Below are positions 46,676 to 49,390 of a DNA stretch of 64,000 nt, in pieces. Both the position numbers and the translations under genes were made by a program. Numbering within the stretch: the stretch's first letter is position 1; the number at the start of each line of letters is the position of its first letter. The stretch covers positions 620,001 to 684,000 of the forward strand of contig NZ_CP107811.1 of the NCBI RefSeq assembly GCF_036346105.1. The letters run 5' to 3'. The notes under the pieces are model-generated. The model was given only the letters and a program-made list of their open reading frames with translations. It was not told where the DNA came from and searched no databases. Source of the stretch: Streptomyces sp. NBC_00539 (lineage in GTDB: Bacteria > Actinomycetota > Actinomycetes > Streptomycetales > Streptomycetaceae).

Positions 46676-49072
<2,397 letters not shown>

Positions 49073-49191
49073 GCTCGTCGTTTCTCCGTCCTCGCGACCG
49101 GCCGTAGCGCAACCGGTGTCCATGCGGGCCACGCTACGGCCGACGGACGGGTTTGGCTTCTCCATTCCTGCCCGGTCACGGACACGACGAA

Positions 49192-49225
49192 AAGGCCCCG
49201 GTCTCCATGAGGAGGCCGGGGCCTT
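49192..49225 (-). terminator. Intrinsic terminator of the tRNA-like gene
   Basis: On the minus strand AAGGCCCCGG and CCGGGGCCTT form a 10-bp stem, continued by CTCC/GGAG around a TCAT loop, followed by a short T run. It begins 5 nt after the 3' end of the tRNA-like gene and is separate from the UvrA-like gene 120 bp further on. Confidence 0.75.
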
Positions 49226-49230
49226 GATCG

Positions 49231-49300
49231 AGCGCTGGGCAGGCCTTGCACCTGCATCCCCCCACGGGAAGTGGGGTGTCTTTCCTTGGACCACCAACGC
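49231..49300 (-). tRNA. tRNA-Gly(UCC)-like gene with GUGC T-loop
   Basis: The 70-nt minus-strand sequence folds into a complete cloverleaf. It has a 7-bp acceptor stem (GCGTTGG with CCAGCGC, one G-T pair), U8, a 3-bp D-stem with GG in the loop, a 5-bp anticodon stem (CCCCA/TGGGG) with loop CTTCCCG giving anticodon UCC, a 4-nt variable loop, and a 5-bp T-stem (GCAGG/CCTGC). The discriminator is U73; G1-C72, C2-G71, G3-C70, C35 and C36 are also present, the known bacterial glycyl-tRNA synthetase identity set. The T-loop is TGCAAGG, so G53-U54-G55-C56 replaces the G-T-psi-C found in nearly all translating tRNAs, and position 37 is C. CCA is not encoded. A terminator follows directly. It may be a non-proteinogenic glycine tRNA; a pseudogene is possible. 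Confidence 0.7.
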
Positions 49301-49342
49301 GTGCCCCGCGGACCGCTTTTCGCGGCCCCGAGCTCAAGGTCA

Positions 49343-49348
49343 ACTATA
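49343..49348 (-). promoter_or_regulatory. Possible -10 (TATAGT) of the tRNA-like gene
   Basis: TATAGT on the minus strand lies 43 nt before the tRNA 5' end, a rare AT-rich spot in this region. A weak -35 (CATGAC) is 17 nt upstream. A small hairpin (CCGC-GAAAA-GCGG) lies in the leader, as often seen before tRNA genes. Confidence 0.35.
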
Positions 49349-49390
49349 GCGCAGGACCGGCGGTGGTCATGTCCGGCCGCGGGTGTGTCG

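Follow-up and report, generated by a model that had tools for sequence, protein, structure and literature searches.

Staphylococcal cell walls provide the best-known case of tRNAs dedicated to work off the ribosome, and a GUGC T-loop in the staphylococcal cell-wall tRNA-Gly was the likeness drawn in a first-pass annotation of the DNA studied here. Among the traits of the weakly EF-Tu-binding tRNA-Gly of Staphylococcus aureus, the sections of PMC4052509 available to us name the replacement of G51-C63 by A51-U63 and the loss of the D-loop GG; these sections make no mention of GUGC. In Streptomyces, BD-12 Orf11 and DhpK consume Gly-tRNA outside translation, and the available part of that report names no dedicated tRNA (PMC12945691). 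Here, we analyze a glycine tRNA-like RNA gene in a window of Streptomyces sp. NBC_00539, the window being the whole stretch of 64,000 nucleotides that was analyzed. The gene belongs to a family of which a search of literature that took in few subscription journals and no bioRxiv preprints yielded no description. Judging from the features reported below, we see an even chance that these RNAs form an accessory family of glycine tRNAs that is charged but kept off the ribosome.

Results

ARAGORN calls one tRNA in the window, a tRNA-Gly(tcc) at 49230-49300 on the minus strand. The gene and its surroundings comprise the following features:

49230..49300, minus strand: tRNA-like core, tRNA-Gly(UCC)-like, covering tRNA positions 1-74 (ARAGORN, fold, copies, covariation)
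49343..49348, minus strand: -10 box TATAGT, 47-48 nt upstream of the core (promoter scan)
49365-49370, minus strand: weak -35-like ATGACC (promoter scan)
49305..49332, minus strand: leader hairpin (fold of the leader)
49190..49226, minus strand: terminator-like hairpin followed by TTTT (fold)
46676-49072: gene for a UvrA-like ATPase, located downstream of the RNA

The minus-strand tRNA-Gly(UCC)-like gene proposed by the first-pass annotation is thus borne out by the ARAGORN call and by a minimum-energy cloverleaf, with a conserved unit of 71 nt, C74 included. The glycine identity elements read there, G1-C72, C2-G71, G3-C70, C35, C36 and U73, are all present in the window sequence, as are G53-U54-G55-C56 in the T-loop, C37 and the D-loop GG. 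C32 and G38 pair in the predicted fold, leaving an anticodon loop of 5 nt. With a free energy of -33.4 kcal/mol (z -2.14; equalled by 6 of 200 shuffles), the fold by itself is only modestly unusual, and the RNA stands beyond chance because its 71 nt recur in 165 distinct copies whose stems covary. One copy lies in the same genome, on a 437-kb contig (C2 20445-20515; L064:6446-6516), identical at 71/71 nt and set in different flanks. The terminator that the annotation had assigned to the gene is seen by folding as a hairpin followed by TTTT, but it is missing from the minus-strand output of a consensus terminator scan. The Rfam tRNA model (RF00005) gave no match to the RNA at the family cut-off, nor at E ≤ 10 over 501 bases or over the whole genome. 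Rfam sRNA identities were discarded, the best being sX13 with E 0.035, far under the cut-off. Directly after the -10 box we observed an over-represented GATC(T/A)TG, at 49333-49342 in the window and in the leaders of other copies, which is perhaps a start-site or operator motif; across leaders its GATC letters occur at 67% (G), 63% (A), 60% (T) and 64% (C), figures from a box search that gave GATC a small bonus.

The 165 distinct copies extracted from the collected loci contain 51 distinct cores. The collecting and extraction patterns fixed letters of the D-loop and T-arm, so that invariance in these parts is partly by construction; the acceptor stem, the anticodon arm, U73 and C74 were left free. 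Among 40 aligned copies, conservation starts at G1 while the leader drifts, and U73 and C74 are present in 165/165. In a covariation test, 99.5% of base-pair cells were paired and both partners had changed in ten pairs, a result reached by 0 of 500 shuffles; the alignment was fitted to the structure, and its 55 rows include four that represent the divergent tRNA described below or a chimeric copy. Sliding the partner columns by 1-3 positions brought pairing below 50%. RNAalifold returned the same cloverleaf from the 40-copy alignment, made without fitting, but with a covariation term of -0.79 and only two pairs in which both partners had changed. A purine pair at positions 26 and 44 is expected in a folded tRNA; the 51 distinct cores carry G-A in 39, A-G in 6, A-A in 6 and G-G in none. 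The RNA is, in short, one with a tRNA fold whose cloverleaf is backed by covariation, and the conservation in relatives that the annotation had proposed to check is found across the 165 copies. Both the covariation and the purine swap at 26-44 speak for an accessory glycine tRNA used outside the ribosome.

Signals around the core are also maintained. In 142/165 copies a TAnnnT box is found 45-61 nt ahead of the core; its T, A and last T were fixed by the search, and a G two bases ahead of it, which was not fixed, occurs in 88%. The leaders fold better than mononucleotide shuffles (mean -15.8 versus -10.1 kcal/mol for 148 leaders), and no leader helix appears in the RNAalifold fold of the 40-copy alignment. 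The 56 nt downstream reach a mean of -35.5 kcal/mol versus -19.3 for shuffled sequences (165 copies), and 121/165 copies have a downstream T-run. The demonstrated part of our account comprises a tRNA fold maintained across the family, a promoter-like box, leader and terminator-like hairpins, exact conservation of positions 1-74 and the glycine identity bases.

To delimit the family, we used a covariance model built from 50 cores. Above 60 bits, it found 105 copies in 62 of 121 Streptomyces genomes, with 1-6 copies per genome; another 11 genomes had weaker matches only (73/121 in all). Of 198 genomes sampled from the order, 109 matched it at E ≤ 1e-10, all within a single genus out of six, and in a class sample of 296 genomes strong matches were confined to Streptomyces; all three scans ran with stricter filters, under which weak matches are lost. 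In the class sample, 16 genomes of other genera matched at 31-51 bits. Of the 14 loci examined from these matches, four were known by length alone and ten by sequence; nine of the ten were ordinary TTC-loop tRNAs and one was the divergent tRNA of a Streptomyces, and these weaker matches were set aside. Comparison of the gene region (171 bases) with 100 related genomes gave clear alignments that mostly set in at base one of the core; the tally of 66 matching relatives is inflated by numerous short matches due to chance. In named genomes, a pattern scan returned at least 120 stretches, and among the 80 matches listed 79 were from Streptomyces and one from Actinacidiphila.

The RNA is found on plasmids as well as chromosomes. 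Blast identified 68 plasmid records carrying it, 66 from Streptomyces and two from Streptantibioticus. For the 60 of the 68 rows listed, the annotation under the RNA was absent in 55 and a hypothetical protein in one, and four records were unannotated; because RNA genes are not part of the plasmid gene table, an empty annotation says little on RNA annotation. A phage origin received no support from 50,697 phage records (0 matches), and a pattern search of viral contigs likewise gave 0 matches. Among 30 chromosomal copies from 16 single-contig genomes, 15 map to the outer tenths, and these 15 come from 7 of the 16 genomes; the enrichment p of 2e-4, based on lengths rounded to 0.1 Mb, is optimistic, as some copies are probably terminal-repeat pairs. 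At several loci (L132, L079, L061 and contig 14 of G445), copies of the RNA lie a few kilobases apart with unrelated genes between them. A multi-copy, patchy element on 68 plasmid records and often near chromosome ends (15/30 in outer tenths) could also be a pseudogene descended from a tRNA, or a short selfish repeat of such descent. We nevertheless hold this to be extremely improbable, given the compensatory changes, the promoter-like box and terminator-like hairpin that are kept though flanks differ, and the one site beside tsaD that is common to 15 loci.

The pattern of constraint within the core looks suited to glycine identity rather than to decoding. G1-C72, C2-G71, G3-C70 and U73 are present in 165/165 copies, against variation in the four remaining acceptor pairs, and CC occurs in all anticodon loops while its flanking bases vary; both observations favor the non-ribosomal reading. 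Normal decoding relies on U33 and a 7-nt anticodon loop. A 7-nt loop with U33, CUUCC(U/C/G)G, is found in 148/165 copies, which counts against that reading. Another 16/165 copies have 6-nt loops, nine of them (C/A)UCCAA and seven C(A/U)NCCG, six of the latter with A at position 33; the loop of the one other copy is irregular. These six-base loops and A33 appear hard to reconcile with normal decoding and count for the non-ribosomal reading. Position 37 of the 7-nt loops is a pyrimidine or G, never A. Among the loci tried, ARAGORN detected 8/8 with seven-base loops and 0/10 with six-base loops.

The T-arm also departs from the tRNAs of the source genome. Of 59 ARAGORN tRNA sequences from its tRNA loci, 58 have the T-loop TTCRA; the sole exception is a divergent tRNA-Gly(UCC), and the window RNA has the same TGCAA. 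A51-U63 occurs in 53/53 distinct rows of the family alignment and, like the TGCAA loop, supports use outside translation; according to PMC4052509, a 51-63 change of this type weakens EF-Tu binding. The alignment with the canonical glycine tRNAs of the genome that the annotation had suggested reveals T-stem differences at 49-65 and 51-63: the window RNA has G49-C65 and A51-U63, whereas the canonical sequences (5/5) have G49-U65 and G51-C63. The D-loop GG is retained in the window copy and in the aligned copies, a point against the non-ribosomal reading.

Could these RNAs simply be additional tRNA-Gly(UCC) species reading GGA codons? Such a role would fit the 148/165 copies that combine U33 and UCC with a 7-nt loop, of a kind that ARAGORN accepts. 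Against it stand the 6-nt loops and A33 in relatives, the lack of A37 in 7-nt loops, the predicted weakness of A51-U63 as an EF-Tu-binding pair and a canonical tRNA-Gly(UCC) already present in the source genome, and we regard an ordinary role as distinctly unlikely. The first-pass proposal of a non-proteinogenic glycine tRNA is supported by sequence features that argue against translation (GUGC, A51-U63, the pyrimidine at 37 and the 6-nt loops of relatives), but a dedicated cell-wall role is not supported.

The divergent glycine tRNA of the source genome lies outside the window:

Contig C1 3400756-3400827 (L015:1349-1421): divergent tRNA-Gly(UCC)

It was matched in 60/60 Streptomyces relatives, and in the class sample its T-arm occurs in 28/28 Streptomyces and in 0/268 other genomes. 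In 30/30 loci viewed, the D-loop GG is missing and the T-arm contains GTGC(A/G)A; a tRNA-Gly(GCC) lies close by in 29/30. Searched against 63 tRNA loci of the source genome, the family model scored best on this divergent tRNA (45.2 bits) and left canonical tRNA-Gly unmatched; it also matched six other, ordinary tRNA genes at 26-35 bits. The window RNA family and the divergent tRNA may share an ancestor, although descent from the latter is not proved because the six ordinary tRNA genes score not far below. With its TGCRA T-loop and missing D-loop GG, the divergent tRNA appears to resemble the staphylococcal case more, and by inference it would be the better candidate for supplying cell-wall glycine.

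These findings bear on the original proposal that the window RNA is reserved for the glycine bridge that FemX builds in peptidoglycan. Likely charging with glycine, the presence of FemAB and an A51-U63 pair as in the staphylococcal cell-wall tRNAs (PMC4052509, in the sections available) agree with it. FemAB proteins, however, occur in 121/121 Streptomyces genomes and the RNA in 62/121, leaving 59/121 with FemAB but without the RNA, and the apparently universal divergent tRNA-Gly(UCC) fits the role better. We consider a FemX-dedicated function very doubtful. The number of FemAB matches, of which one protein may yield two, is slightly higher in genomes with the RNA (3.56 versus 3.0, p 0.045), and these genomes are larger (median 9.1 versus 7.9 Mb); with genome size removed, FemAB number and RNA were not associated among the 121 genomes (rho -0.08, p 0.39).

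The association with other aminoacyl-tRNA-dependent enzymes that the annotation had put forward for checking was not found either, in counts tallied by eye: Lant_dehydr_N (LanB/PEARL) occurs in 16/24 genomes with and 16/24 without the RNA, and cyclodipeptide synthases (CDPS) in 5/24 with and 10/24 without. FemAB, Lant_dehydr_N and CDPS were thus all set aside as partners, with no positive link after genome size, and the lack of a co-occurring acceptor enzyme among these three weighs against the non-ribosomal reading. Clustering open frames of at least 120 codons across 130 loci of at least 6 kb revealed no neighbor gene common to all; the largest group around the RNA spans 21/130 loci, and groups share a site. 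Of 22 plasmid regions viewed, 18 had genes and four had no gene table. Among the 18, three are near-copies of a single site, and the others have no gene in common. The UvrA-like gene was found in 52 of 61 genomes searched and was rejected as a partner, the RNA being absent from 29/29 loci viewed with that gene in other genomes. The shared site near tsaD, a gene for t6A modification of tRNA, includes L173. Small secreted proteins resembling lamin-tail domains are encoded near the RNA in 6/195 loci (L113, L132, L296, L306, L308 and L312), at three of the six on the strand of the RNA and some 700 bases downstream of it.

Another candidate reading is a regulatory tRNA mimic. It would titrate or report glycyl-tRNA synthetase or glycine, or its C-rich loop would pair with mRNAs. 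The standalone, multi-copy and patchy occurrence, the structured leader, the variable loop sequence and the lack of an acceptor among the enzymes tested are in line with this idea, whereas exact conservation of positions 1-74, including U73 and C74, suits a matured tRNA. We rate a mimic as rather unlikely.

Discussion

The reading that we favor is that of a charged glycine tRNA kept off the ribosome. The family RNA would be transcribed and matured like a tRNA and charged by glycyl-tRNA synthetase via G1-C72, C2-G71, G3-C70, U73, C35 and C36. EF-Tu would bind it poorly, given A51-U63 in place of G51-C63 and a missing pseudouridine-55 site, and its glycine would then pass to a non-ribosomal acceptor, which is probably something other than standard FemX. 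In its broadest form, to which we assign slightly less than an even chance, this reading envisages a genus-wide class of accessory glycine tRNAs freed from the ribosome, in which the anticodon loop serves only as a handle for the synthetase and which feeds glycine to an undescribed enzyme or signals glycine status to an undescribed circuit.

Among described systems, BD-12 Orf11 and DhpK differ in that the window RNA showed no link to the FemAB-type, Lant_dehydr_N or CDPS families. Canonical bacterial tRNA-Gly (RF00005) shares the cloverleaf, G1-C72, C2-G71, G3-C70, U73 and the CC in the loop with the family, which departs from it in T-loop, T-stem, D-arm and some anticodon loops and is invisible to Rfam's tRNA model. 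The non-proteinogenic tRNA-Gly of S. aureus, as far as described in the available sections of PMC4052509, is alike in glycine identity and in having A51-U63 for G51-C63, and unlike in carrying UU or CU where the window RNA has the D-loop GG. The Streptomyces RNA is further set apart from the S. aureus tRNA by being multi-copy, dispersed over plasmids and chromosomes and missing from about half of the genomes, by the 6-nt anticodon loops of some copies and by having no FemAB link. If our reading is true, the presence of a multi-copy family in about half of a large antibiotic-producing genus would suggest that a new pathway of glycine transfer, or a regulator built on a tRNA, operates there. The divergent tRNA-Gly(UCC) of Streptomyces has a related T-arm with the TGCAA loop; unlike the window RNA, it has a canonical acceptor stem, no D-loop GG and an extra T in the T-arm, and as a divergent, apparently universal tRNA-Gly it makes the supply of cell-wall glycine in Streptomyces directly testable.
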